Shown here: piece after piece, positions 5,134 to 27,497 of the stretch
How the letters are laid out: every line of letters begins with the position of its first letter
Numbering within the stretch: the first letter of the stretch is position 1
Virus record (IMG/VR): IMGVR_UViG_3300031566_000157
Location: 1-39,117 of that record
Direction: 5' to 3' (one strand)
Source of the DNA: a virus
DNA length: 39,117 nt
Notes under the pieces: model-generated
Seen by the model: only the letters and a program-made list of their open reading frames with translations
Told to the model about the DNA's origin: nothing
Database searches by the model: none
Made by a program: the position numbers and the translations under genes

Positions 5134-6033
5134 TTAATATTCTATTATTGAATAAGTCGAATTATCCGGATAAACTTGAACATCCTGTTGTAAGTCACTA
5201 AAATAATATTGCACCCAATCTTTTACATAAAGATACGCCTCTTGCAAGCTGACTTTGGTATCTCCGTTAGAATCTGCAGGATAATCATAATTAAAATAAC
5301 CACAACCTGTGCATAAAGCCATGGTAAATACCCCACAAGGTTTGCCGAATATTGGAATTATTTCCGCGCACTCCTGATTGTAATGGCAAGAAGTCAAAAC
5401 TTTATATTGATTAGTAGTAAGTAGCCCTTTGGATTCGGACTGAGAAAAGACATTAATAATCTCATCATTAAAAGATGTTAATTCTTCCTCTGAAATTGTT
5501 ACTCCCTCTTTGCCTTTCCCGATAAATCCTCCAGAATGACAGGTATCAAGTATGACTACTTTCGTTCCAGGTATAGCACTTAGAGCCTGCTCCAACTTAT
5601 TTATACTTATTTTTGAGAATATTGAAAATATTGGGAAATTGGAATAAAAAGGGCAAAGATAAGAAATTCCTAAAAATCTTCCTCCATGCCCGGTATAATA
5701 AAAATAGGATACATCATCATTATCTGCATCAGAAAAAGTAGAAGCAATTTCATCTAAAATCGCTTCTTTTGTTGCATCCGAATCTTTCAGCTCATTAATA
5801 ATAGAAAATTCGGTATCTAATAAACCAAATCTGCATTGGCTAAAAATTTGACGTATTCTATCTACACTATAAATTGGACTTGGCAGGTCATTTTCGCTAC
5901 CAAAATAATCTCCAATTCCTATAAGTAAAGCACGATGTACTATTTCGTTGTTAACGGACAGAGGGGGAACTACTCCTGTGCAACCAGTAATTAAAAATAT
6001 TAAAATTATAATTGATAAGACAATCTTTTTCAT
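5134..6033 (-). CDS. Caspase-family (C14) lipoprotein protease with EF-hand-like loop
   Basis: The 299-residue protein has a lipoprotein signal with lipobox LITGC (Cys18). A caspase/metacaspase-type p20 domain follows: the start strand HRALLIGIGDY (33-43), the catalytic His in YYTGHGG (His116) and the catalytic Cys in VILDTCHSGG (Cys165). Near the C-terminus DSNGDTKVSLQE (254-265) fits a 12-residue EF-hand calcium loop at positions 1, 3, 5, 9 and 12, and leads into a helix. The protein should be membrane-anchored outside the cytoplasm and possibly calcium-controlled. It overlaps the preceding gene by an ATGA junction and is followed by a terminator, so the pair looks like an accessory cassette inside the tail module. 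Substrate and role (superinfection exclusion, host envelope attack, defence) are unknown. Confidence 0.8.
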   Translation of the reverse strand: MKKIVLSIIILIFLITGCTGVVPPLSVNNEIVHRALLIGIGDYFGSENDLPSPIYSVDRIRQIFSQCRFGLLDTEFSIINELKDSDATKEAILDEIASTFSDADNDDVSYFYYTGHGGRFLGISYLCPFYSNFPIFSIFSKISINKLEQALSAIPGTKVVILDTCHSGGFIGKGKEGVTISEEELTSFNDEIINVFSQSESKGLLTTNQYKVLTSCHYNQECAEIIPIFGKPCGVFTMALCTGCGYFNYDYPADSNGDTKVSLQEAYLYVKDWVQYYFSDLQQDVQVYPDNSTYSIIEY

Positions 6034-6548: not shown

Positions 6549-8939
6549 TTACCACCCTGCATCGAGCCACCAATGTCCCCAAGCATTATCAGGCGCACCA
6601 ATATAGCCTACAAATCTAGGGTTGTTTCCCCCATCAGGATTATAAGCCATTTCTCCAGCCGAAGCAGCAGGTGCGGAAGCCACATCTGGAAAATTAAACG
6701 TACCTGTGCTTTTACACGCGAAAATATATGAACCAGGATTAAAAGAAACAAAATCTCCATCCGAATATAACCTAACACCATTACTAAAATACATAGATAA
6801 TAAGGCAAGTCCACTTTTATAAAAATTTAATATATTACTACCAGCATCATACAAACGAATTCCACTTTGCACAAAAAGAATATTTCCTTGGCCTGAATAA
6901 CCGATGTTAAAATTTATTCCACTAATTGTTCCTGCTTTAATATTATCTGCAGTAAGTAAACTTGTTTTTATATAACCGCCTTCAATGATTGTTGTGCCTA
7001 ATCCAGTTAATGTAATAGAACCTGCATAAATCTTTCCACCATCAATATAAGTTATAGCTCCACTTTTCGCCCAGGCCTCAATATTAGTTTTATAGTCGCC
7101 ACTTTGAAACATTCGTGCTAATGCATCGCTGCCCAATTTACTTATTAAAACTTCACTTGCTCCTATCTTATCTGCTGTTATCGCTCCTGCCTGTAAAGCA
7201 TTAGTATAAATAGAATTAGCCGCTATTAAGTCAGCAGTAATGGCATAAGCTACGATATCATTGGTTCCCGCCTTGTTAGGCGCTATACTATCAGCGGTAG
7301 GGGTAGAGGTAGCCCCTTCTATCCCGGTCTGGGTAAAGGCTTTGATCCGATAACGATAATATTTGGTATAGGTCAATAGCAAATCCAACCACATAGTTGC
7401 ATCAGTTCTAACCCTTTCAGTCCATTCTCCGGTCCAGGTTGTTCCATTATCACTTTCCTGCCTTTCCACTACATAACCAGCAATATTATCCTCAGTCGCT
7501 ATATTCCACACGATCTTGATACCACAAAGTAAAGCAGTCGCTGTAGCTCCGGTTATTTGTGCTGGAGTTGTTGAATCGGTGGCCGTAACTTTAGTTACCT
7601 CCGTGCTCCAGTTGCTTCGGTTATTATAAATGTCCACCGCTCTTATTTGAACCCCATATTCGACTCCCGGCTCCAATCCATACCAGATAAAGGAAATATC
7701 GATAGTGGAGACCTCGGTAAAATCAGCATCTCCAACCTTCTTAATTCTTAACTCATAATGTCCAAAATCGCTCTCAGTATTGGCTTCCCATTCAGCTGTA
7801 ATCCAGGATAAACTCGCTTGAGTAGCTGATCCCAGACCAGTAGATAGAGCCAAACCAACTGGAACATCAGGGGCAATTTCGTCCTCTCCTATAATCCTGT
7901 CCCTTTCCTCTCCTATAACTATTATGTGGGTATAAGTTTCATCTATATTTTCTTCTACATCTTCAATCTTGGTTTCGTAGTCTGAAATTGTACTGACCGG
8001 GGATCCTACACTCGGCTTCGGTTTGAAGATAGGATTGCCGGCATAATCAAAATAGAATCTATACTGCACTACTTCCGATAATAAAGTAATAGCTTTTAAA
8101 GAGCTAGTCCCGGCAGCAAACCATACTCTATCGATGGTCTTTCCGGTGGCAGTACAATATCCGCTGGCTAACCAGGTGTTCCTCTCAGTCTCATTAGCGA
8201 ATATTCCAGCAGCTAATAAAATATCGGCTACAACATTTTCTATACTTTGGGTCTGAAAATAGTAGATTTTGAGGTTATTCGTTCCAGCGAAATCCGGTAT
8301 TCTCCGTGGAGTAAAGACTAATTGGTTATTGTGCCAATCGTAAGACCAATCGGTATTCTCATAGATCTCTTCCAGATTGCTCCCATCATAAGGAGAAGTG
8401 GAATCCAAAAAGACCCGATAAACTCCTTTGCAGTCGGCTTCCATGTCATATCTTATTTTATTAGCTATCGTATTATAGGTAATATTGGTTCCCCAGTAAG
8501 TGTTAGGAGAATATAGTTTAAAATCCAGAACCATCCTCATCAGGCAACGTCCGGTTATGGTGCAGATATCCTGGCCTGCTCTTTTGCCTAATTTAAAATC
8601 GTCTACTCTGCCCAGGATAAGTTGATAAGGATAATTGGTTTCGTTCTTTCTTATCCCTGCATATAACTTTATTTTTCTGCCTTGCGATAACCATCCATAA
8701 TAAGATGAGCCTAAATTTACAGGATCGTATCTATTATTAGTATTAAGGCAGGTTATATTAAAAGAGTAGCTACAGAATTTCGCTACTCGATTTTCTTCGT
8801 TAGTATTTATGCTATACGTTTTTATATCCGGTAACTCTTGGAAGTCCCCTTCACCATCAGAATCGATCTCTACTTTCGATATAACCAAAATTGAATCCTG
8901 CTCAAAATCCTCTACGGTTAGAGGAGCAATATCCTGCAT
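6549..8939 (-). CDS. Tail hub/tip protein with FN3 domains
   Basis: The ATG at 8937-8939 is chosen over an upstream TTG because it forms a TGATG junction with the preceding gene and has GGAGGT nine bases upstream, giving 796 residues. The N-terminal part (about 1-350) resembles tail hub proteins: beta-barrel segments (KIKLYAGI, YQLILGRVDDF), then SLKAITLLSEVVQYRFYFD and THIIVIGEERD. Two fibronectin type III domains follow (about 355-550, starting APDVPVGLALS and TTPAQITGATAT). A region typical of fibre attachment comes next (AITADLIAANSI, AGAITADKIGASEV, KTSLLTADNIKAGTISG), and then a Gly/Ser-rich tip. It lies right after the distal tail protein. The expected terminal hub domain is missing here and appears as a separate gene at 4.4-4.8 kb. 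Confidence 0.75.
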   Translation of the reverse strand: MQDIAPLTVEDFEQDSILVISKVEIDSDGEGDFQELPDIKTYSINTNEENRVAKFCSYSFNITCLNTNNRYDPVNLGSSYYGWLSQGRKIKLYAGIRKNETNYPYQLILGRVDDFKLGKRAGQDICTITGRCLMRMVLDFKLYSPNTYWGTNITYNTIANKIRYDMEADCKGVYRVFLDSTSPYDGSNLEEIYENTDWSYDWHNNQLVFTPRRIPDFAGTNNLKIYYFQTQSIENVVADILLAAGIFANETERNTWLASGYCTATGKTIDRVWFAAGTSSLKAITLLSEVVQYRFYFDYAGNPIFKPKPSVGSPVSTISDYETKIEDVEENIDETYTHIIVIGEERDRIIGEDEIAPDVPVGLALSTGLGSATQASLSWITAEWEANTESDFGHYELRIKKVGDADFTEVSTIDISFIWYGLEPGVEYGVQIRAVDIYNNRSNWSTEVTKVTATDSTTPAQITGATATALLCGIKIVWNIATEDNIAGYVVERQESDNGTTWTGEWTERVRTDATMWLDLLLTYTKYYRYRIKAFTQTGIEGATSTPTADSIAPNKAGTNDIVAYAITADLIAANSIYTNALQAGAITADKIGASEVLISKLGSDALARMFQSGDYKTNIEAWAKSGAITYIDGGKIYAGSITLTGLGTTIIEGGYIKTSLLTADNIKAGTISGINFNIGYSGQGNILFVQSGIRLYDAGSNILNFYKSGLALLSMYFSNGVRLYSDGDFVSFNPGSYIFACKSTGTFNFPDVASAPAASAGEMAYNPDGGNNPRFVGYIGAPDNAWGHWWLDAGW

Positions 8940-9295
8940 CAACTTCCCACCTCCACACAAGTTGCTGAAACTTCATAGTAACCCGGATAACTTCTGCTTA
9001 GTTTAGGCCTAATTGGATTTCTAAATTTAACCGTATGGTCTTCTAAATAATCTTCTTCTTCTAATTGTAAATTTAAATCCCCGGATAAATCAAAGATATC
9101 CAATAAGGCGTTCTTTTCAGTCTTAGTTAAGCACAGGAAAGTCAGACCATAAGTCTGATAAGTATTAACCGCCTCCTGCATTTTGATGTTTCCAGCAATC
9201 ATCAAATGCTCAGACTTGGTTTTTATCCTATCAGGTGCTATATTTACATAGTGAAAAATTGTCTCTGAATCTTTAGGTCCTATCTTTATATCCAT
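8939..9295 (-). CDS. Distal tail protein-like
   Basis: The 118-residue protein lies between the tape measure and the tail hub, where siphoviruses encode the distal tail protein. It is beta-rich, with a middle segment YGLTFLCLTKTEKNALLDIF and a closing strand YYEVSATCVEV, as in short Dit- or gp19-like tail proteins. The ATG has GGAGGAATAAA upstream, and that sequence overlaps the tape-measure stop. The stop overlaps the hub start as TGATG. The assignment leans on gene order. Confidence 0.6.
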   Translation of the reverse strand: MDIKIGPKDSETIFHYVNIAPDRIKTKSEHLMIAGNIKMQEAVNTYQTYGLTFLCLTKTEKNALLDIFDLSGDLNLQLEEEDYLEDHTVKFRNPIRPKLSRSYPGYYEVSATCVEVGS

Positions 9296-9296
9296 T

Positions 9297-12200
9297 TTAT
9301 TCCTCCATTAAAGTCAAGCCTCTCATACCGAACTGCTTTTTCAATTCCACAAATATCTTATCTCCCGCATTGGCAATAGTTTCATCATTCAATTCTTGAG
9401 CGAAGATTGATATCGACACCCCTTCAATATTTACCTGGTTACTTGTCGGGTTCGAAATAATCGATGGAACCGTGCCTCCCACAGCAAACGAAGGAGTCGG
9501 AGTCCTTGTCCCCATCCTAATTGCATTAATTAAATCACTAGTTACAATTCCCGTTCTCTTAATAAAATCAGTCATTGGTTTTGAAACTACATATTCTCCA
9601 GGAGTTGCTCTAATAAGAACAGTATCCGTTCCTCCTCCAAGTTGAAGACCTTTTATCAACCCACCTAAATCATATCCAATCCCGATACCTAAATCCTTAA
9701 CTTGTTTCGCAACTTCTCCGCCTAAAGCCATTCCCTGAGAGGCAAGAGCTGCGATAAATGCTATTCCTAGAATTGCCCAACCTACCCATCCCATAGACAG
9801 TAATGCTGATATCGCTTGTTTGGCAATAATTTCTGCAAGTGCGTTTATGGCAGCAGTTTTAATATCTTTCCAAAACTGGTCCCAGATATCTTTTTTAGTA
9901 ACCATATCATCTGACATATCTTGCATTGCCTGCTCGTGCTCTTCTTTGAGATCAGCAATATTTTGTAGTGCATTTTCTGCTGCCGCATCATCTCCTGCAA
10001 TAACTGCTTGGTTATACTCTTCCTGAAGTGTTGCCATCTCATCCAAGTATTCTTCTTCTAATTTAGCCATATCCTCCTTGATCTTTGCGTTAGTTTCTGC
10101 CATAGTAAATAGAGAAGTAATGGCGTTTGATAAGGCTCCTTCAAAGGAACTTACAAAACCTGATATACCGTCCTGTAATATGGTCATCGTAGTTCCATAT
10201 TTTTCTTTTAGGTTATCGAAAAATTCTTTCCATTCTTCCCAGGCTGATTTTGCGGCTTCTTCAAATTCAATGCCCAAAGCCTTTATTATTGGCATAAGCC
10301 CGGAAGCCTCCAATTCAACTGCCGACATTCCTTCAACTAATTTAATTAATTCCTCTTTTAGGGCTTCAGTTGCTTCTTCATTAGCATAAAGTTCTCCTTT
10401 TGCTTTGACCATTCCATCTGTCCACTCTTCGCCTTTATCTTTCAGGTCTGTTATTTTTCCAGCAAGAATTTCGTGCTCTTCCCCTAATAGTCCAAGTCTA
10501 TCTTTATAATAATCTGCATCTTTAGCAGTCACTTGATACTGCTTACTTTGAAGATCTAATTTAGCACGTACTAATTCTAAACCTTCTAATTCTTCATTTC
10601 TTACCTGATTTAGCTCGTTAATTGTTTCTTTTAAATCTTTGGCATTAATTCGTGCTTCCAGATATACAAGATTTGCCTCTTTATATTCTAGGGTTCCTTC
10701 CTCGAGGGAATCCCTTTCTGCTTTTTTCACCTTCACTATTTCTTCAGAGACCCTCAGCATGTCCTCATAATATTTTATGGTAATCTCTTCAGTCTGATTG
10801 GTAAGTTTATATTGGGCAGTTAATATCTGCATCTCGAGGGATAATAATTTGGTGACATCGACAACTTCTGTCTCTTTTTTGTATAATTCCTCTAATCTTT
10901 TTATCTCTAAATCGTACCATTCATTTATTAATTTCTTTTCAATTCCTAACTCTATAAGTCTCTGTTTCTCTTCATCAAGTAAGCGGATAGAATTTTCCAT
11001 AGCAGTATGGGATAGCTCATATATTTTAAGTCCAAGATCCTTTTCAGCGTTAGCAATTTCTTCTGCTTTTACCTTTTCCTCCAAGGCTATCCTTTCTGCT
11101 TCCATTTTTTCCTTTATCTCGTCTTGGATTGCTGCTATTTCTTTATCTAATTTTAGTCTTTCTGCGGTTACCTCTCTTCCTTCCTCTTCGGCTATAGTTA
11201 GTATTTCTCTCTGAACTTCCATTTTTTCTAATCTATCAGTTAAGTCTTTTATTGTTGCATCATACCATTTAAGTCCTTCTTCCATCGGTGCTTTCCACCA
11301 AGCATCTTTATATCCATCGACAAATTTCTTTCTTGCCTCTTCAACTTCTTCTAACTCTTTTTCTAATGCCTCTATCTGTGGAATTAAATCTGATAAATCT
11401 ATTTCTTTAAGTTCTTTCCTGGTTAAAAAAGTCGCATCGGTAAGATCCCTCATTTTTTCAACTAACTTATCCAACCCCCAATAGATAGCTGCGCCTACCA
11501 AGAAAGGAATAAAAGCTATTTTTAGAAAACCAAGTGAAGCAATAAGACCTGGGAGCATTATTAATAATGGTCCAAGAACTAATAAGGCTACACTAATGCC
11601 AGCTCCCCATTTAACTATCGTCTCGGTAAGGGGTTTATTTGCTTCGGTCCATTCTTTAACCTTTCTGATAATCTCTATCGCTTCAGTGGTAAGATCCATT
11701 ATAGGTGGAATTAAGACATCTCCTACGGTAACCTTTATAATATTAAACGCTGCTTTCAATTGGTTTAGTTTGAAGTTTAAGGTATCAGATTGCTTTGCAA
11801 AGGCTTCCTGAGTTAGGCCAGCAGAATCTAACATCAAAGCATAACTTTTAGCATACCCCTCGGCATCTCCCAAGGCTGCCGCCATACCTTTTAAACCTCT
11901 GATGTTAGGAAATATTTCTGCAAGCTGTTCAGCAGTTGCGTCTGTCAATTTTTCCATCACCCCGGTCAGACCCTCGGTTCTTAAGGTATTAGAATTAAGT
12001 TCCAGCCCAAATTTTGCCGCTGCCTCTTTGGCCTCATCGGTAGGTTTGAGAAATGCTATCAGCACACCATTAATGGCGGTCATGGTTTCTTCTGTCCGGA
12101 TTCCGGCCCTAGTCATAGTGGCAATAGAAGCTCCTAAATCATCAAAGTCCAATCCGGCCATCGAGGCGGTGGCAGCGACCTTTCCGATTGAGGGTGCCAA

Positions 12201-18082: not shown

Positions 18083-19375
18083 TTAACCTATAGCCAGGTT
18101 CTTGATCAGGACAATGGCATTTACGTTCTCGATGGCTAAATCCGCTCTCAAACTATAGAAGAAGTAGGTAGCTTTGTCGGCAGCGGACCTTTCGGTTTCC
18201 ATTTCGATATCCCGGTGGATACCGATAATTAAATTGTCCTTATGGGTTAGCATACAGTCAGTAAGGGAACCCCCATTCAGTTTTCCATCCGCATCCAGGG
18301 TATTAGCCATTAATGGACAGGAAACAATAGGAATTTTTCCCCATTGAATCGGCGCCTGTCCTAAAATAGCGGTATCTCCTAGAGCAGTAGAACGTTCTGC
18401 TAATGCCTCGATGTAATCTTCCTCTACCTGGTCATTGGTGAAAAATCTGAGATTGGCCAAACCTTCCAACTTATATATAGCAGGCATTCTTCTTCTAGCT
18501 TTGGCAAACTTAAATTCCCAGTTATAAGGTGCAGTAGCGGCCTGTTCAACGATCTTCCCAGTAAGTAAGAAGTCTTGAATGGTGCAAACTCCCCCTGAAG
18601 TGTATGCAGTATATCCTGTTGAATCTATACCATCCAATGAGAAGGTATCAACAGTAAGCACAGTAATTTTATACAGCTTACTATTAAGTTCAATCATTCC
18701 TACTACATTAGTAATCTTCACTGTGTTCCCAGTAGAAAAACCGTGTGCTACAGCCGTAATTACACAAGGATCAGCTTGTGTTGCACCTGTAATGGCTGCT
18801 GTTGCCCCAGGAGCCGCATTCAATACGGTAGCCGAACCGGAAACATCATTTACGTAGTCTTGGTCTGCTCCACTATGGGTGATTCTGTATCTCCAGCCAT
18901 CAAAGAGGCTCCTGATATCAGTATTAGCGAAACCACCTAAGCTATGGGTATCTCCAATCCAATAAGCTTCATCGAGTTCATTAGCAATCTGTTTGGTTAC
19001 CATCTTCATGATATGGTCCATGAAAGCATCTCCCTCAATGTTATCCTCTATATCATCATCGTGGATTACGGCACAACCCCTCACTTCTTTGGCATTCAAA
19101 ACAATAAGGTTATGGCTAAGCTGTTGCTTGTAATCAGATGACACAAAAGTAGCCGCTGGATGGAGAAATTTGCCAGCACCCAATCCCATAGCCCTGATAT
19201 TTTTGCTCGCTTTATCCATCTTTACCTGTCTGGCATTATTTTTGAGGACAGATTGATCATATACGTAATCAATAAACCTATCCGCTTCCTCGGCAGCCAG
19301 AACAATGGTAGGCATGCTGATTAATGCCTTCTGGAAGCTTTCTTTATTTAATAGTTCACTATTAACTTTAAACAT
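18083..19375 (-). CDS. Major capsid protein with inserted E1-FCCH-like domain
   Basis: The 430-residue protein fits an HK97-fold major capsid protein: N-terminal arm (ESFQKALISMPTIVLAAEEADRFID), then DDDIEDNIEGDAFMDHIMKMVTKQIANELDEAYWIGD and a C-terminal LFDGWR.., ITNLAIG-type closing strand (NAIVLIKNLAIG). Between about residues 189 and 267 lies an inserted beta domain (AAITGATQADPCVITAVAHG, GNTVKITNVVGMIELNSK, FSLDGIDSTGYTAYTSGG). This pattern is known from FCCH-like domains first named in ubiquitin-activating E1 enzymes and often seen in phage proteins. It should decorate the capsid surface. It follows the scaffold gene as expected, and the ribosome binding site is GTGAGGTGAATAATAG. Confidence 0.8.
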   Translation of the reverse strand: MFKVNSELLNKESFQKALISMPTIVLAAEEADRFIDYVYDQSVLKNNARQVKMDKASKNIRAMGLGAGKFLHPAATFVSSDYKQQLSHNLIVLNAKEVRGCAVIHDDDIEDNIEGDAFMDHIMKMVTKQIANELDEAYWIGDTHSLGGFANTDIRSLFDGWRYRITHSGADQDYVNDVSGSATVLNAAPGATAAITGATQADPCVITAVAHGFSTGNTVKITNVVGMIELNSKLYKITVLTVDTFSLDGIDSTGYTAYTSGGVCTIQDFLLTGKIVEQAATAPYNWEFKFAKARRRMPAIYKLEGLANLRFFTNDQVEEDYIEALAERSTALGDTAILGQAPIQWGKIPIVSCPLMANTLDADGKLNGGSLTDCMLTHKDNLIIGIHRDIEMETERSAADKATYFFYSLRADLAIENVNAIVLIKNLAIG

Positions 19376-20705: not shown

Positions 20706-20735
20706 ATATTATCATAAAAAATTGGTTACTGTCAA
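20706..20735 (-). promoter_or_regulatory. Promoter before scaffold-capsid genes
   Basis: On the minus strand a perfect TTGACA (20730-20735) overlaps the TGA stop of the large fusion gene. An A/T-rich -10 follows: TAATAT at 20706-20711 (18-base spacer) or GATAAT at 20708-20713 (16-base spacer). Transcription would begin near 20699 and meet the terminator hairpin within about 110 bases. Confidence 0.6.
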
Positions 20736-23700
20736 ATATGCATAGCTCGGCCCGCTAATGAATAGCCAGTTATCGTGCCATCCTTTATTCCTTTCCAGAC
20801 TTTTTCATCTAATACTCGGGCGATTAATAACCAACTCCCCTTTTTTATTTTTTGATTATTTATCTCAAAATCCACTGGTGCAATATAAATTTCCAATACT
20901 TTGGTATCAATGTATTTACCTTTATGGTTAACCTTAAATTTTTGCGGGCCTTCCATGTAAGAATAAAGAGCTTTTCTTATCTCTTCTTCATTAGTAGTAT
21001 CACCCTGGCTATCTACTTCATTCGGAGCATAGACGACCCCGCATACAATATGCTCATCTTCTTTCTTAGAGATATCAAATATGGGAATAAATTTATTAAA
21101 TTCATAATGCTTAGATTTTCCAGCCCCAGCTTCTTCCTTGAGCTTAGATACCATCCAGACTCTTTCACCCTTCTTCCCGGCTTCGGTTATTGGTACATAG
21201 GCAAAAAGGTAAATCCCCTCTGGTATCACCTCTATATTTTTTATTTTTAGTTTCTTAGCATGATCATCCTGAGGTTCAATTGCGTTCCAATCAAAACCAT
21301 CAAGGATTAGCATAGCCCCATATTTATTAGTGGTAGCTCCTACTGCTCCTGGTGGGAATATCTCAATCTTATTCCTACCGGCTTTCATCCATGAAACGGG
21401 ACCTCTAATCGTCTCTGCCTCCGGTTCTTCTACTCTTGGCACCTTCCAACCAAATCTGAGTTTGCCGCCTTCTTTCAACCTCTTTAATTTATCTAAACCA
21501 GTAAGGTTTCCGATCATTATCTCTCCACCTTCAAAATAATCATCGCCTTTTCTGACCATTCTTAAATCAATATGGGCTCCTTGCTCACCTATTGCACCCT
21601 TTAATAGCATCTTTAATTTAGTCGGATTGGCTCTGGATCTTACTGCTTCAGCGGACACCTTCTTAAGTTCTGAAATTTTATCTTCCTCTATCCCCATTAT
21701 GTGAAGCTGCAGAACCCCTTTGCCGGTATTTCCTATCACATAATCTATATTCCCTTCCTCCGCTTTCTGTAACGTACCCTTTTCTCTTAGAATTTCTCTC
21801 TCTTTTTCCCAGGCTTCCTCGTCATCAAATTCGTGTTTTTGGTACCAGCTGTCGGGCATATTACAAATCCCGCCTACCGGCTCTTCATCTCCACATATCA
21901 GACAACGCGGGTGTCCGTTGGGATGGGTATATTTAGCTGCTTTAAACTCGTGAATCTTTCCTGCTAAAGGTTTCTTCTTATTTTCATTAATAACGGCTGT
22001 CTCCTTCCCATATTCTTCTGTTTGCTTATCTGATAATTTCTTTTCCATCCCTTCATCTTTATAGAATTCTCTCTTTAATTCAGCCCAGATATTTGGATTT
22101 CTATTATCCCCAAATTTCTTTGCTGCTATTCCATCTTTTACTTCTTTAACAGAGATTATTTCACCCTTACCATCACCGGTTGTGGCCCATTCCTTGAAAT
22201 GTTTCTCGCAAAACCAGGCATGGCCTATTCCCTCAGCCCATAAGCATTCATAAACGGGAGGATTAGAGCATTCCATACATTGATCTCTCTTATGCTGTGC
22301 CTTCTGTAATATATTCGCACGTTCAGCTATCCCTATCACCTGCTTAGCAAAATAAGGCTCTTTTCGGTCCTTATCAATATCCAATACCCTTGGTCCTAGC
22401 CATTGCAATTTATCTTCTTGAGGTATAATTTCTTCAATGCCTATAGTCAATATATCTCCTACGTTAGCATTTATCTTGGTATTAAAGGTCTTGCCTAAGT
22501 CAATATATTTCTTACCTTTGAATTCGATCAGATTAGTAAATTTACTGTCTCCGGGCAGCAACCCGCAATGATAGTTATAACCACCGGCCCGGTTAGGAAT
22601 TTTCTTAATGGCCATTACCTTTATCTCTGCTTCTATCTTTATCTTGGCCCAACCTTCAATACTCCCATCAGTATCCCAGATACTATTTAGATCCTTAACC
22701 ATGATGCCTTCGCTTTGAGGCAACCTAGATAATTTTTTAAACTGAGCTTCTAACTCTTTGCCATCTTTAACTATTATAAAATTAGTCAAGTCAAAATGGG
22801 GATCACCCTTTAGGTATTTACTATAAAACTTCTCTAACTGTTCTCTCCTCTCTTTTAGCGGTTTAATATGCAGATCTTCTTTCCAGTAAGGCAAATCGAA
22901 TATAGTAGCCTTTATAATATCCTTTTCTTCCAACACCGGCTCATCACTCATTAAAGTCATTAGCTTAATACGGGGTAAGGCCTTACCGTCTCTCTCGATA
23001 CCCAAGCCAAAATCAAGAATGAAATCCTCGGATATCTTCTGTAATACATTAACTAATTCTTTAAGTTGTTTAGTCCTATCTTTATCCCCTTCAGTTTTTA
23101 GCCTTAGTTTATCTCCCAGCTTTTCCGCTACACATCTAAAGGCATTAAGTTTTTCCTCCACGTCCAGAGGAAACCTATCCTTAGCCCAGTTTTCAATCTG
23201 GGAATATTCAAATGCTTCAGTAATTCTGGCCATCGTGGGCTTAGGTGGGATAAAAGTTCCGAAGGGTTTAAGGTTATCGGCTTTTTTGATTTTAGCCACC
23301 TTGATAATGGCTATAGCAGTGTTGTCTCCATGGTCGACCATTTTAATTTCATCATTTTTATCGAATAATGCTTTGAAATCATCTATTTTAATAAACTCCT
23401 GTTTATGTGTGGGATCAAGCCTCTTGCCCAGAGGACTAATAAATATAATCTTATTATTAGACACCCGGGTAGCTTCCTTAATAGTTTTACCGGGATTCTT
23501 TAAATGTTCTAATATATGAAGGCCGATAACATTACAGAAAAAATTATCCGCATAAGGTAACTTATCTTTTTCCAGATCAAGTTTTTTAACGGCCAAGCCT
23601 TTCTTTTTACACATATCCAGAGCTATATCATTATTATCTACTCCATCCACCTGGTAATTATAATAATCCGAGTTTATCAAAGCCTGCATCACTCGGCCGG

Positions 23701-23878
23701 TCCCGCAACCCAGATCTAGTATTGTCTTACCCTCTAAGTTTTTGGCCATCTCTGCAAAGTCATAAATAAAGTTCTGCTTCCATTCATCCAGGCCCTCATA
23801 GTATTCGTGGTCACCTTTGGCAAGATTAATTATTTTATGGATAATTTTTCCATTCTCTAACCCATGTTTTATTTCCAA
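20732..23878 (-). CDS. Fusion: methyltransferase, ATP-dependent ligase, LigD-PE-like region, XkdF protease
   Basis: The 1048-residue protein starts at TTG (23876-23878), set by AGGAGG eight bases upstream. Residues 1-195 are a class I methyltransferase (ILDLGCGTG 53-61, acidic D81). About 205-505 is an ATP-dependent DNA ligase: Lys243 in EEKLNAFR (motif I, usually KxDGxR), TIFDLPY 325-331 then a PLKERREQLEK helix, EGIMVK 390-395 (motif IV) and WAKIK 410-414 (motif V), then an OB-fold-like part. The motif III glutamate is not evident. About 530-675 holds two Cys/His clusters (CMEC 534-537; CLIC 659-662). About 710-915 resembles the LigD 3'-phosphoesterase: HIDLR 769-773 and PPGAVGATT 842-850. 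About 930-1046 is an XkdF-like prohead protease (VCGVVYAPNEVDSQGD, IKDGTITGYSLAG). The protease may free the parts. Confidence 0.75.
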   Translation of the reverse strand: MEIKHGLENGKIIHKIINLAKGDHEYYEGLDEWKQNFIYDFAEMAKNLEGKTILDLGCGTGRVMQALINSDYYNYQVDGVDNNDIALDMCKKKGLAVKKLDLEKDKLPYADNFFCNVIGLHILEHLKNPGKTIKEATRVSNNKIIFISPLGKRLDPTHKQEFIKIDDFKALFDKNDEIKMVDHGDNTAIAIIKVAKIKKADNLKPFGTFIPPKPTMARITEAFEYSQIENWAKDRFPLDVEEKLNAFRCVAEKLGDKLRLKTEGDKDRTKQLKELVNVLQKISEDFILDFGLGIERDGKALPRIKLMTLMSDEPVLEEKDIIKATIFDLPYWKEDLHIKPLKERREQLEKFYSKYLKGDPHFDLTNFIIVKDGKELEAQFKKLSRLPQSEGIMVKDLNSIWDTDGSIEGWAKIKIEAEIKVMAIKKIPNRAGGYNYHCGLLPGDSKFTNLIEFKGKKYIDLGKTFNTKINANVGDILTIGIEEIIPQEDKLQWLGPRVLDIDKDRKEPYFAKQVIGIAERANILQKAQHKRDQCMECSNPPVYECLWAEGIGHAWFCEKHFKEWATTGDGKGEIISVKEVKDGIAAKKFGDNRNPNIWAELKREFYKDEGMEKKLSDKQTEEYGKETAVINENKKKPLAGKIHEFKAAKYTHPNGHPRCLICGDEEPVGGICNMPDSWYQKHEFDDEEAWEKEREILREKGTLQKAEEGNIDYVIGNTGKGVLQLHIMGIEEDKISELKKVSAEAVRSRANPTKLKMLLKGAIGEQGAHIDLRMVRKGDDYFEGGEIMIGNLTGLDKLKRLKEGGKLRFGWKVPRVEEPEAETIRGPVSWMKAGRNKIEIFPPGAVGATTNKYGAMLILDGFDWNAIEPQDDHAKKLKIKNIEVIPEGIYLFAYVPITEAGKKGERVWMVSKLKEEAGAGKSKHYEFNKFIPIFDISKKEDEHIVCGVVYAPNEVDSQGDTTNEEEIRKALYSYMEGPQKFKVNHKGKYIDTKVLEIYIAPVDFEINNQKIKKGSWLLIARVLDEKVWKGIKDGTITGYSLAGRAMHI

Positions 23879-23881
23879 TTT

Positions 23882-24592
23882 CTAATCCTCCTTTATTTTT
23901 AAGACATCGCAAAATCCATATTTCCGTCTGGTTATAATCTCATTGGGGATCTTGGTTTTAGCTATTTCAACCATCAGCTTTTTTCTACATTCATTATCAA
24001 CTTTTTCGCTAATTGGAATCTGAGAGAATAATAGAAGTAACCTATTATCAAGATAGGGAAGATATATTTTTATCTGATTAGAATTTTTGTCAAGGGGAAT
24101 TAAATTTTTATTTTGTAATTCTCTAAGATTAGCATAATAAGTATCTTCGCAAGGTTTATCTTGGTGACAATAGTATCCACACATAAACTCATCTATCCCA
24201 TCACAAGCTATTATTTTATCTGTATATCCTCTCAAAAACTTATAGAATAATCTAACTGCATTATCCCCTTCAAATTCTTCAAAAGATTCTTTAGCGTCTT
24301 TTATTTCAATACAAGAAGGAATATAAACCCTATGAATAACATTATCAAACTTATCTGTAACCAGTTTTGAATATCTAACATCGGGATGTAATTCTGAAAT
24401 ACCCATTGTAAAAGTTTCCACTTGTTTATGTATTTTAAGCATGAAATAAAGCATCAGACTTGAATCCAATCCTCCCGAAAAAGATAAACAATTACAATCA
24501 ATCTCAGATAATATTTGCAAGATTGTATTCTCAATATCTTTGAGTTTTATTGGTTGCCCTATTTCTTTCCAGTTTTCAGGATATATAATCAT
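23882..24592 (-). CDS. Asparagine-synthetase-like ATP-pyrophosphatase
   Basis: The ATG at 24590-24592 is preferred over the GTG nine bases upstream because AAGGAG sits eight bases before it, giving 236 residues. It is the synthetase half of asparagine synthetase B without the glutaminase half. The PP-loop SGGLDSS (residues 39-45) binds ATP, DGIDE (131-135) corresponds to the GDGxDE motif, and YLPYLDNR (177-184) and RRKYGF near the C-terminus match the synthetase core. Such enzymes activate a carboxylate as an adenylate and pass it to an amine donor. Lacking a glutaminase, it would use ammonia or another amine. It sits between the nucleotidyltransferase and the large fusion gene, with the fusion gene's ribosome binding site in its last codons. 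The substrate is unknown. Confidence 0.8.
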   Translation of the reverse strand: MIIYPENWKEIGQPIKLKDIENTILQILSEIDCNCLSFSGGLDSSLMLYFMLKIHKQVETFTMGISELHPDVRYSKLVTDKFDNVIHRVYIPSCIEIKDAKESFEEFEGDNAVRLFYKFLRGYTDKIIACDGIDEFMCGYYCHQDKPCEDTYYANLRELQNKNLIPLDKNSNQIKIYLPYLDNRLLLLFSQIPISEKVDNECRKKLMVEIAKTKIPNEIITRRKYGFCDVLKIKED

Positions 24593-24594
24593 AA

Positions 24595-25491
24595 TTACCA
24601 CTCCTTGGCCTTTTCCTTAAGGGTCATTCCCGATTTCATTTCTTTAGGTTTTATCTTGTTCCCTTCGGCTTCCTCGTCTGACCAAACAACTTCTTGGGTA
24701 CGTTCCAACCCTTTTATCACATGGAATATTCCCTCTTTAATCTCCTTGCCACCTAAATAAGCCTTTCCATTTTTGATTAACAGATGCTCCTGTTCAAACA
24801 TATTGCCAATATGGTCATAGACTAAGCAGTGATGGATTTTCTCTTCTCCTTTATTGTCAATCTCTATATGATGAAGAAGATACTCATAATCTTCTAAAGT
24901 ACGCTCTGGTCTTAAGTCTTTTTCTATTTTTTCCGATTTACTATAATCTTCTTTAACTTCAACCCTGTTAATCTTATTTTTCGATCTTAAAACCAAATCA
25001 AAAAGCGGAATGTAAGTTGAATGAGCCCCGGTTTCATTATAAACAAAATGGCATTTCTTCTCGATCTGCTTCTGCATTAATCGGGATAGCTTTAATTCCA
25101 ACCCTTCATCCCGTTTTCTTTCATCTTCTCTTACAATTAAATCCAGGTCATCTGCATCTTTCGGGGATTTGACGAAACCGCCACCAATGGACACATAATC
25201 GGGAACTTTTACTATATCACCTAAAGAGGATGTATTTAGCCCATATATATTTTTTCTGAATAATGCCCTATCGATGCTTTGAACACCATGAGTACGTTTC
25301 CTCTTATTCATCTCCTTAAGCAGCAATCTATATTGATCGAGAAAGTTATTCCTCTCTAATTTATCTACTTTCTGTCTATTATTATCTTCAAACCATTTAT
25401 TGAAAAGTTGAATAAATCTCAAGCGCAGGCTGTGTAATTCTAGACCTGACAATTTACTTAATTTTTCTGAAGTCATTTCCTCTATCTTCAA
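24595..25491 (-). CDS. Pol-beta-type nucleotidyltransferase
   Basis: The 298-residue protein starts at TTG (25489-25491) with AGGTGATT upstream. The central domain has the pol-beta nucleotidyltransferase pattern: SIGGGFVKSPKDADDLDLIV (about residues 101-120), where the Gly-rich strand precedes an acidic DxD that binds metal. A later strand, PLFDLVLR (about 161-168), may carry the third acid. The N-terminal 90 residues are helical and basic; the C-terminal third (HIEIDNKGEEKIHHCLVYDH) is unknown. Its acceptor could be nucleic acid, protein or a small molecule. It belongs to the enzyme block with the synthetase and the fusion gene. Confidence 0.6.
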   Translation of the reverse strand: MKIEEMTSEKLSKLSGLELHSLRLRFIQLFNKWFEDNNRQKVDKLERNNFLDQYRLLLKEMNKRKRTHGVQSIDRALFRKNIYGLNTSSLGDIVKVPDYVSIGGGFVKSPKDADDLDLIVREDERKRDEGLELKLSRLMQKQIEKKCHFVYNETGAHSTYIPLFDLVLRSKNKINRVEVKEDYSKSEKIEKDLRPERTLEDYEYLLHHIEIDNKGEEKIHHCLVYDHIGNMFEQEHLLIKNGKAYLGGKEIKEGIFHVIKGLERTQEVVWSDEEAEGNKIKPKEMKSGMTLKEKAKEW

Positions 25492-25578: not shown

Positions 25579-25809
25579 TTAATAAATCCTACCCTTTACG
25601 AATTTAGGCCTATCAGTTATTTTTACTATCATGCCACCTAGTTTTTTAACTGTTTCTTTAGCAACTGCCAAATCCGAGAAGGGAGAATAGTCCGTAAGAG
25701 TGTCCCTAGAAAATACTGATAACATATCTTTTAAAAATTTATCTTTACATTCCCATTTATCGTCTTTTATGGTGGCCTGAACTCCTTCTATCTCAATAGT
25801 CACAGCCAT
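25579..25809 (-). CDS. Small unknown protein
   Basis: The 76-residue protein starts at an ATG that overlaps the stop of the MuF-zincin gene by one base, with GGGGGAAG upstream. It has two short beta strands at the start (VTIEIEGVQATIKDDKWECK), a helix and a basic C-terminus (PKFVKGRIY). No family is recognised. Its place directly after the head morphogenesis gene suggests a head-related role. Confidence 0.5.
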   Translation of the reverse strand: MAVTIEIEGVQATIKDDKWECKDKFLKDMLSVFSRDTLTDYSPFSDLAVAKETVKKLGGMIVKITDRPKFVKGRIY

Positions 25810-27497
25810 TAATACTTCCCCCTCACCAGGTTATAAATGAAATCAAAATATCCCGGGTCCTTAGTAGCCAATCTATAAGGATTTTTATAGAACTCTCCCA
25901 GCCCCATACTTAATATCTCACTCGCCTTTCCTTCGTAATCTTTTCCCATATAAACGTCGATAAACTTATCTTTTCTGGTAAGCTCGTCTGCTCCGTATCC
26001 GTCCAATAGACGAATCAAACCTTCTCCTTTAGTTCGTTTCTTATAGAAGGCCATTATCGATTCATGCACTTTTGGGTTCATATCTTCCAGCCAGTGTCCC
26101 AGTTCATGGACAACCACTTCGGTATTTTCATAAAGTATCGAAGGTTTACCGATATAAATTGAACCTCTTGAATAAAATGATCTGGCTGCGGTTTTCCCAA
26201 CCCGGGGGAACATAACTCCCGTAGATTCCTTATCGATAAGCTTACTAAATTCCTTTATTGCATTTTTGAAAAATGGTTTCTCTCTTTCTTTTATTAATTC
26301 AGCCCATTCTGGATATAGGTTAAAACCTTCTTCAGATACCTGCAACATCTTCCTCATCTTTATATTATCTCTTATCCTGATAAAATCTATCTTAGCTTCA
26401 TTCTTCAGATACAGGTCTTTATATTTTTCTGCCGAATCAGTGAGCCCAAGTCTTTTAAATTCGAGTGATCTCTTTTGGTATCTGTAGGACTGACGTTCAA
26501 GTCCAGCAAGTTCTTCAATTGAATCTTTATGGATCTTCTCGATTCCTGACCTTACCATCCCAGGAGTTTTTGGTTTCCCTGGAACTTTAGGCTTCTTAGG
26601 AACCCCTGGTTTTTTCTTCCTGGGAACTACTACAATCCAATGACACCGGCAATTAGGATGTTTTGGAAGGACTCCTCTAGCTTCGGCTCGCGTGAATCTT
26701 TGCCCCGCCAAATCCAGACATTCGGAACAGGCATCTCCGGCCGAAGATATCTCCACCTCTTCATACCGAGTCCCCTCTAATGAATCTAAATAGCCCTCAT
26801 TCACACTTCTCGATACCTCTGTTCTAGCTATTAATTCACTCCGGTCTCTCAAAAGTCTATCATAACGTTTAGTATACTTTTGTAGATATAACTCTTTAGG
26901 GAGCTTCTGTGCCTCTAAGACTTTTCTATATTTCAGTAAGGCTGCACTCTGTCTCCCATTTAGCCCCACATCTTTTAAATGTTCTATATCCCTTGCTACC
27001 TGAGTAAGCGTCTTCCCTTCCTTCAATCCATGGGACACTATTTCCCGGATTCCTTTTTTCGTCTCCTTTTCTACCAGCGTGATTAATTCATAAGAGTATT
27101 TCTCGGCCCACTTAACCGATAGGGGATTTATTACATCAAAAGAGGCCTCGATCCTGGCATGCGCTCGGGATAAGTTACCAGATCTCTCCATTATATTAAG
27201 ATAGGCTGGCTTGATTATACTCTTGCCTTCTTCTTCTATCGTCTCCCAATCTACATAATCTATTATTATTTGGGACTTGGATTTCTTTTCAAATTTTAGA
27301 ATCCTATTTTTAATATCTCTGATAATCTGTTTCCGAGATAGTTGCATCCAATCCCGGATCTTAGGATATAGATAGGCCTCACACTCATCCATCAATTTAA
27401 GTATTTGCTTCCTCATCCTTTCTTTGCGGCCTACCTTCTCAAAAAATATACCTACAAGTTTATCCAATTCCTCTACGGTATCACTGGTTAATGGCAT
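25809..27497 (-). CDS. MuF-like head morphogenesis protein fused to zinc metalloprotease
   Basis: The 562-residue protein has two parts. The first (about 1-295) resembles the SPP1 gp7/Mu F minor head proteins: a helical N-terminus, RTEVSRSVNEGYLDSL, and the metal-binding-type motif CSEC (257-260) with HPNCRC (280-285). After a Pro/Lys-rich hinge (KPGVPKKPKVPGKPKTPG) and a helical linker comes a zincin-like domain: HELGH (464-468), with Glu527 in ASEILSMG as a plausible third zinc ligand. Such C-terminal enzyme domains on MuF proteins are often effectors carried in the virion. It sits directly after the portal region. The peptidase substrate cannot be told. Confidence 0.75.
   Translation of the reverse strand: MPLTSDTVEELDKLVGIFFEKVGRKERMRKQILKLMDECEAYLYPKIRDWMQLSRKQIIRDIKNRILKFEKKSKSQIIIDYVDWETIEEEGKSIIKPAYLNIMERSGNLSRAHARIEASFDVINPLSVKWAEKYSYELITLVEKETKKGIREIVSHGLKEGKTLTQVARDIEHLKDVGLNGRQSAALLKYRKVLEAQKLPKELYLQKYTKRYDRLLRDRSELIARTEVSRSVNEGYLDSLEGTRYEEVEISSAGDACSECLDLAGQRFTRAEARGVLPKHPNCRCHWIVVVPRKKKPGVPKKPKVPGKPKTPGMVRSGIEKIHKDSIEELAGLERQSYRYQKRSLEFKRLGLTDSAEKYKDLYLKNEAKIDFIRIRDNIKMRKMLQVSEEGFNLYPEWAELIKEREKPFFKNAIKEFSKLIDKESTGVMFPRVGKTAARSFYSRGSIYIGKPSILYENTEVVVHELGHWLEDMNPKVHESIMAFYKKRTKGEGLIRLLDGYGADELTRKDKFIDVYMGKDYEGKASEILSMGLGEFYKNPYRLATKDPGYFDFIYNLVRGKY

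Follow-up and report, generated by a model that had tools for sequence, protein, structure and literature searches.

Why should a virus encode an asparagine synthetase-like enzyme among its head genes, and on what would such an enzyme act? The question is raised by a 39,117-base virus record (the window, that is, the whole stretch of DNA analysed), whose minus strand runs in head–tail order from TerL through a portal, MuF and a nucleotidyltransferase (NTase)-like gene to ASN, an AsnB-type PP-loop synthase domain protein, and onwards to a methyltransferase–ligase–XkdF polyprotein, a scaffold-like gene and the probable major head protein, a virion structural protein. An initial annotation, made from the letters alone, had described ASN as an AsnB-type synthetase that lacks its glutaminase half, is out of place in a virion module and may share a modification pathway with its neighbours. 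By comparing the locus with its relatives in viral contigs, we find that the first parts of this description hold, that the proposed pathway does not, and that the partner of ASN is a small domain fused to the end of the gene in front of it (Table 1).

Table 1. Features of the ASN locus in the window
Feature	Position	Strand	Remarks
ASN, AsnB-type PP-loop synthase domain protein	23882..24592	−	237 aa; PF00733
HHC domain, His/Cys-rich partner of ASN	24598..24897	−	Residues 199-298 of the gene upstream of ASN; homology block with other loci begins at 24897
Mobile cassette block (HHC domain and ASN)	23892..24897	−	1006 bp, 89.5% identity with L003/L004
Carrier gene (N-terminal NTase-like part, C-terminal HHC domain)	24595..25491	−	298 aa
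NTase-like part of the carrier gene	24907-25491	−	Motif SIGGGFVKSPKDADDLDLIV
AAGGAG, probable ribosome binding site of ASN	24601..24606	−	In the Lys-Glu codons of the HHC-terminal KEW
AAAGGAGG, probable ribosome binding site of the next gene	23887..23894	−	Within the last ASN codons
PP-loop SGGLDSS, pyrophosphate/ATP binding	24458..24478	−	S-G-G-x-D-S kept in 34-35/35

The ASN frame is open from a GTG (23882-24601) or from the ATG used here (23882-24592), whose Met is an invariant column among 26 aligned relatives. Its product matches the Pfam family Asn_synthase (PF00733; E value 5.5e-19, 69.5 bits, above the cut-off of 21) and has human asparagine synthetase as its closest PDB protein (phmmer, E value 4e-8), while falling below the equivalog cut-off of TIGR01536 (62.6 against 267.1 bits). 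The motifs SGGLDSS, DGIDE and YLPYLDNR that had been read in it are all present, and the last codons do hold the ribosome binding site of the next gene (23894-23887). As had been noted, only the synthase half is encoded: the N-terminal class-II glutaminase with its Cys-2 is absent, whereas all 73 full-length viral AsnBs examined have at least 430 aa and open with MC[GAS]. With 35 distinct relatives and dN/dS values of 0.02-0.33 in five pairs, ASN is not a chance frame; the same five pairs place both ASN and its partner domain under purifying selection. The gene has a lower GC content than the sequence around it (0.295 compared to 0.34-0.40).

Across the family, the residues that handle ATP and pyrophosphate are intact, with SGGxDS, D134/E135, K204, R222 and K224 each kept in 34-35 of 35 members. 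In asparagine synthetase, an Asp-Arg dyad (human D400/R403) contacts the amino-acid part of aspartate, according to the available text of PMC6748925 and PMC13060819. The corresponding ASN columns, matched by alignment, are 163 and 166, and here the dyad is missing in all 35 sequences: position 163 is Q, H or N, and no Arg occurs at 166, which is Pro in 31. Since the nucleotide-binding residues are kept and the dyad is lost, ASN likely activates a carboxylate and is unlikely to use free aspartate, which agrees with the earlier suggestion that it may act on something else. A further hallmark is His143, found in 35/35 family members and in 2/45 others.

The family also descends separately. In a tree of 81 synthase domains (35 cassette ASNs, 26 full-length viral AsnBs, 19 cellular AsnBs and one more viral row, L128), the 35 ASNs fall on one side of a branch with an SH-aLRT of 97, and so form a clade apart from the full-length viral AsnBs and from a small bacterial sample whose cellular rows represent one phylum. 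A recent, incidental capture of host asnB, which the initial annotation had named as grounds against its reading, does not agree with this tree, with the lost dyad or with His143.

The partner of ASN emerged from its neighbourhoods. An ASN-led search gave 13 viral loci, and when their genes were compared with those of the window, what recurred was ASN accompanied by the final 100 residues of the ‘NTase’ gene product, mostly with nothing else. We named this region the HHC domain after its motif, E-x-[IL]-H-H-C. It spans roughly 85-105 residues, among which are many conserved His and a single invariant Cys; among 30 aligned members, the invariant positions are one Leu, two His in the first predicted strand, a Glu, a His and a Cys in the second, and one Trp. 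The Glu of the motif is the only invariant acidic residue. Pfam and PHROG searches with the carrier gene gave no match, and the domain has no consistent match in Pfam, PHROGs or the PDB and none to a toxin family; weak single hits such as crAss_CARGO2 (E value 0.026) were taken as chance, and an HNH/EndoVII-like nuclease identity, considered on account of the motif spacing, was dropped as unsupported. AlphaFold models of HHC reached pLDDT values of 66 and 76, and structure comparison with the HHC model gave neither a PDB chain at Z >=2 nor a viral model at an E value <=0.001. With a pLDDT of only 76 and no fold match, a metal site in HHC is a guess from composition. Judged by these comparisons, HHC is a new domain, previously unnamed.

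The two partners are rarely found apart. Over all scans, the ASN family comprises 43 contigs, the window included, with L003/L004, L018/L020, L030/L031, L032/L033, L036/L012 and L158/L159 as near-duplicates; the tree used 35 rows, and L043-L046, L128 and L132 are other PP-loop proteins and lie outside it. By profile search, HHC adjoins ASN in 36 of the 43, all 36 HHC contigs carry ASN, and HHC-led scans found no viral HHC locus without it. The genes overlap or lie <=6 nt apart in 35 of these 36, the remaining one (L025) having a DNA methyltransferase gene in between. In five further contigs (L030, L031, L034, L042 and L040), the ASN neighbour has an H[HN]...HC signature in a sequence different from HHC; the last two are a synthase cut by the contig end (L038) and an ASN fragment (L039). 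An H[HN]..HC motif therefore occurs in the ASN neighbour of 41/43 contigs, compared to 2/800 other plus-strand ORFs of the ASN loci, 3/874 ORFs of 77 background loci and the neighbours of 0/77 other PP-loop loci, mainly full-length AsnBs. HHC and ASN distances correlate as well (Mantel r 0.42, with 0/9999 permutations as high).

Such pairing sets the genomic position of ASN in a different light. The gene does lie between the NTase and the ligase/protease fusion, as first described, but the neighbour that matters for its function is the domain at the C-terminal end of the NTase gene product, rather than the NTase itself. The supposed trio does not recur: among 34 representative loci, we counted NTase homologues in 4, the XkdF protease in 3 and the ligase in 1, numbers that are lower bounds as several loci have short flanks. 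The methyltransferase and ligase parts of the window polyprotein have no homologue in the other 33, and we rejected a pathway shared by NTase, synthase, methyltransferase and ligase/protease, as this gene set is not conserved.

The polyprotein itself (20732-23878, minus strand; 1048 aa) consists of a MetW-like methyltransferase (residues 49-147), a DNA-ligase-like domain (236-414), a Cys-rich middle and the XkdF head protease (936-1047). Elsewhere on this strand, the MuF protein (25809-27497) has a C-terminal stretch with HELGHWLE that matches phrog_33618 and appears metallopeptidase-like by eye, a virion structural protein (18083-19375; phrog_1623) contains an E1_FCCH-like insert at residues 209-265, and a caspase-like protein with a lipoprotein-like N-terminus is encoded at 5134-6033 (NCBIfam caspase_w_EACC1, E value 5e-14, 52 bits compared to a cut-off of 140).

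HHC and ASN move together. Aligned with blastn, the window and L003/L004 have a single block in common, which opens with the first HHC codon, closes where ASN ends and measures 1006 bp (89.5% identity); outside it, 0 bp are similar. As this block is all that the window and L003 have in common, we regard HHC and ASN as a mobile cassette, which sits behind the NTase in the window and behind a portal–MuF protein in L003. Many other pairs of loci are likewise similar within the cassette and little or not at all beyond, and the related-phage pairs L027/L037 and L021/L024 also have flanks in common.

The partner can also change. In L030 (with its near-copy L031), L034 and L042, ASN is accompanied by a second type of protein, the FHNYEH type, which retains closely spaced His and one His-Cys as HHC does; hhalign found no homology between the two types, and the acidic residue of the FHNYEH type is not at the place matching the HHC Glu. 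ASNs with this partner occupy three separate places in the tree and not a clade (AU p 7e-15), that of L030 pairing with HHC-bearing L041 (support 100/99) and that of L042 with HHC-bearing L036 (98/85). On this topology, ASN is retained while its partner switches.

The setting of the cassette is that of a head module. Of 20 genes scanned downstream of ASN, head maturation protease or major-head/protease families account for 11, a MuF-type protein for 1 and sugar-nucleotide enzymes for 2, and 6 have no match at an E value of 0.001 (for L032 and L040, a gene lying further downstream was used, and for the contig of L158, L062). Among the upstream or carrier proteins that we scanned, 8/10 belong by their matches to terminase, portal or head morphogenesis families. 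As first remarked, an AsnB-type synthase is unusual in a virion module. HHC is encoded by itself or carries a short tag in 23/36 contigs and is joined to a longer carrier in 13/36. Carriers contain portals in L004 (Mu-type portal plus MuF), L023 (lambda-type portal with a LAGLIDADG insertion), L024 and L179, and are NTases in L019, where the GG...DxD motif is degraded, and L022; in L018 (3858-5120), an NTase-like part, a phosphoribosyltransferase and HHC form one protein.

Some of these loci show further peculiarities. The LAGLIDADG-bearing stretch of L023 (2948-6088) lies in frame within the portal gene and is probably an intein, with the HHC domain at the end. For the N-terminal tags of standalone HHC proteins, cultured phages gave no match; one short tag, RC...(Y/F)PD..Q.YAVC, occurs in the L032 HHC protein (7501-8004) and near the start of the L026 head maturation protease (8711-9619), and is possibly a head-targeting domain. 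In two large phages, the head module has sugar-nucleotide enzymes directly behind ASN (L021:8719-11895 and L024:8705-11726), a set of epimerases, a GDP-mannose-dehydratase type, a DegT aminotransferase and a C-methyltransferase.

We tentatively favour, at somewhat short of an even chance, the reading that ASN works on a head protein, where it activates a carboxylate of the HHC domain to give an amide or isopeptide, the two genes forming a mobile cassette of tailed-phage head modules. It draws on the pairing, co-transfer, separate descent, head-module location, intact ATP/pyrophosphate residues and lost aspartate dyad, all read from the sequences, and from these we infer the substrate and the product of ASN. 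The change of partner while ASN stays also speaks for it, as does the tag common to L032 and L026. The HHC domain would be placed in the head by C-terminal fusion to a portal, portal–MuF or other head-module protein, or be encoded alone, and its carrier would bring it into the prohead. ASN would then adenylate an HHC carboxylate, the Glu of E-x-[IL]-H-H-C being the candidate, and ammonia or a nearby amine would close the activated group into an amide or isopeptide. The product would mature a head-borne structural or injected domain, possibly a metal site or injected cargo. Against this weigh the 6/20 unmatched and 2/20 sugar-nucleotide genes downstream, the displaced acidic residue of the FHNYEH type, the negative hhalign comparison of the two partner types, and the modest pLDDT of the HHC model. 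A wider version is somewhat doubtful: that the AsnB-derived ligase puts an amide, isopeptide or thioester on a His/Cys domain of portal, MuF and other head proteins, as a mobile head modification system whose 1-kb cassette is swapped among unrelated phages and can switch to a second, unalignable His/Cys partner.

If HHC is the substrate, the strict pairing would follow; an obligate subunit would give identical pairing, and this is the chief rival, although we hold it to be unlikely. HHC would here replace the lost glutaminase half, as ammonia supply, tunnel cap or lid, in a two-chain amidotransferase whose substrate would be some other protein, a nucleotide or a surface sugar. The complementary distribution fits, with HHC beside short enzymes and never beside full-length ones with a Cys-2 glutaminase, as do a conserved His/Cys cluster that resembles an active or metal site and the sugar-nucleotide enzymes directly after ASN in L021 and L024. 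Sugar genes, however, occur in just 2/20 loci, a domain covalently joined to another protein in 13/36 contigs, several times a portal, would be odd for an ammonia supplier, and an unalignable partner type replaces HHC while ASN stays.

HHC might instead be an injected effector domain like those of MuF polymorphic toxins, with ASN as its activator or immunity protein in the producing cell, which we consider improbable. Exchange of a C-terminal domain and the next gene as a unit among portal, MuF and other carriers speaks for it, and MuF and portal proteins are known to carry effector domains in the available text of PMC5512222 and PMC5576092. HHC is conserved rather than polymorphic, however, 23/36 HHC proteins lack a long carrier, no toxin family is matched, and an ATP-dependent synthase with all its nucleotide-binding residues would be an odd immunity protein; the exchange of partners would be expected of substrates or adaptors more than of an immunity protein. 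That ASN is an ordinary auxiliary asparagine synthetase taken from the host is very improbable, and we rejected it, since membership in PF00733 and the occurrence of full-length AsnB in other phages are set against a separate clade (with cellular rows from one phylum), no glutaminase, an aspartate dyad lost in 35/35, a near-invariable partner and a head-module position.

Returning to HHC as substrate, the proposed chemistry has precedent. With asparagine synthetase B (PF00733; human ASNS, E. coli AsnB), ASN has the PP-loop synthase domain and ATP/pyrophosphate residues in common, and it differs in having no glutaminase and no Asp-Arg dyad, in H143, in being viral and in its partner protein. 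As described in the available text of PMC13060819, the AsnB-like lasso-peptide cyclase, TsrC, ScdTA and the PesC nitrile synthetase act on a dedicated ribosomal peptide; their substrates are small natural-product precursor peptides. HHC, in contrast, is a domain that in many cases is fused to head proteins. The lasso-peptide arrangement, in which a short precursor peptide and a B protease accompany the cyclase, is not seen here, as the ASN partner is a domain of 85-105 residues, often portal-fused, and no lasso-type B protease was found among the ASN neighbours scanned, within limited flanks. MuF polymorphic toxins and polyvalent phage proteins resemble HHC–ASN in layout, with C-terminal domains on MuF/portal and a cognate small gene behind (PMC5576092 and PMC5512222), and the cassette exchange is toxin-like; unlike them, HHC–ASN has one conserved domain and an enzyme as its second gene. 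A word search of the accessible portions of those two papers returned neither amidotransferase nor asparagine synthetase, and a literature search whose coverage mostly excludes subscription papers returned no description of the pair or of an AsnB-like enzyme on phage head proteins.

Every cassette member found is an IMG/VR viral contig. None occurs in 50,697 cultured-phage records, where four 30%-identity matches in Listeria phages were set aside as ordinary PP-loop genes. Plasmids gave none with an ASN query only, nor did genome contigs with a narrow ASN pattern that would miss L059/L070-type enzymes, and HHC was found in 0/395 genomes of one phylum; a narrow HHC pattern matched in genome contigs a single lipoprotein, L071, taken as chance.

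Across these many uncultured phages, the HHC–ASN pair has the look of a shared and transferable device by which some component of the virion is modified chemically. Through a new domain that is its strict companion, an AsnB-type ligase dependent on ATP is linked to virion proteins. If HHC does undergo modification, covalent maturation of a head protein in phages would have an enzyme of its own, in addition to proteolysis and self-catalysed cross-links.
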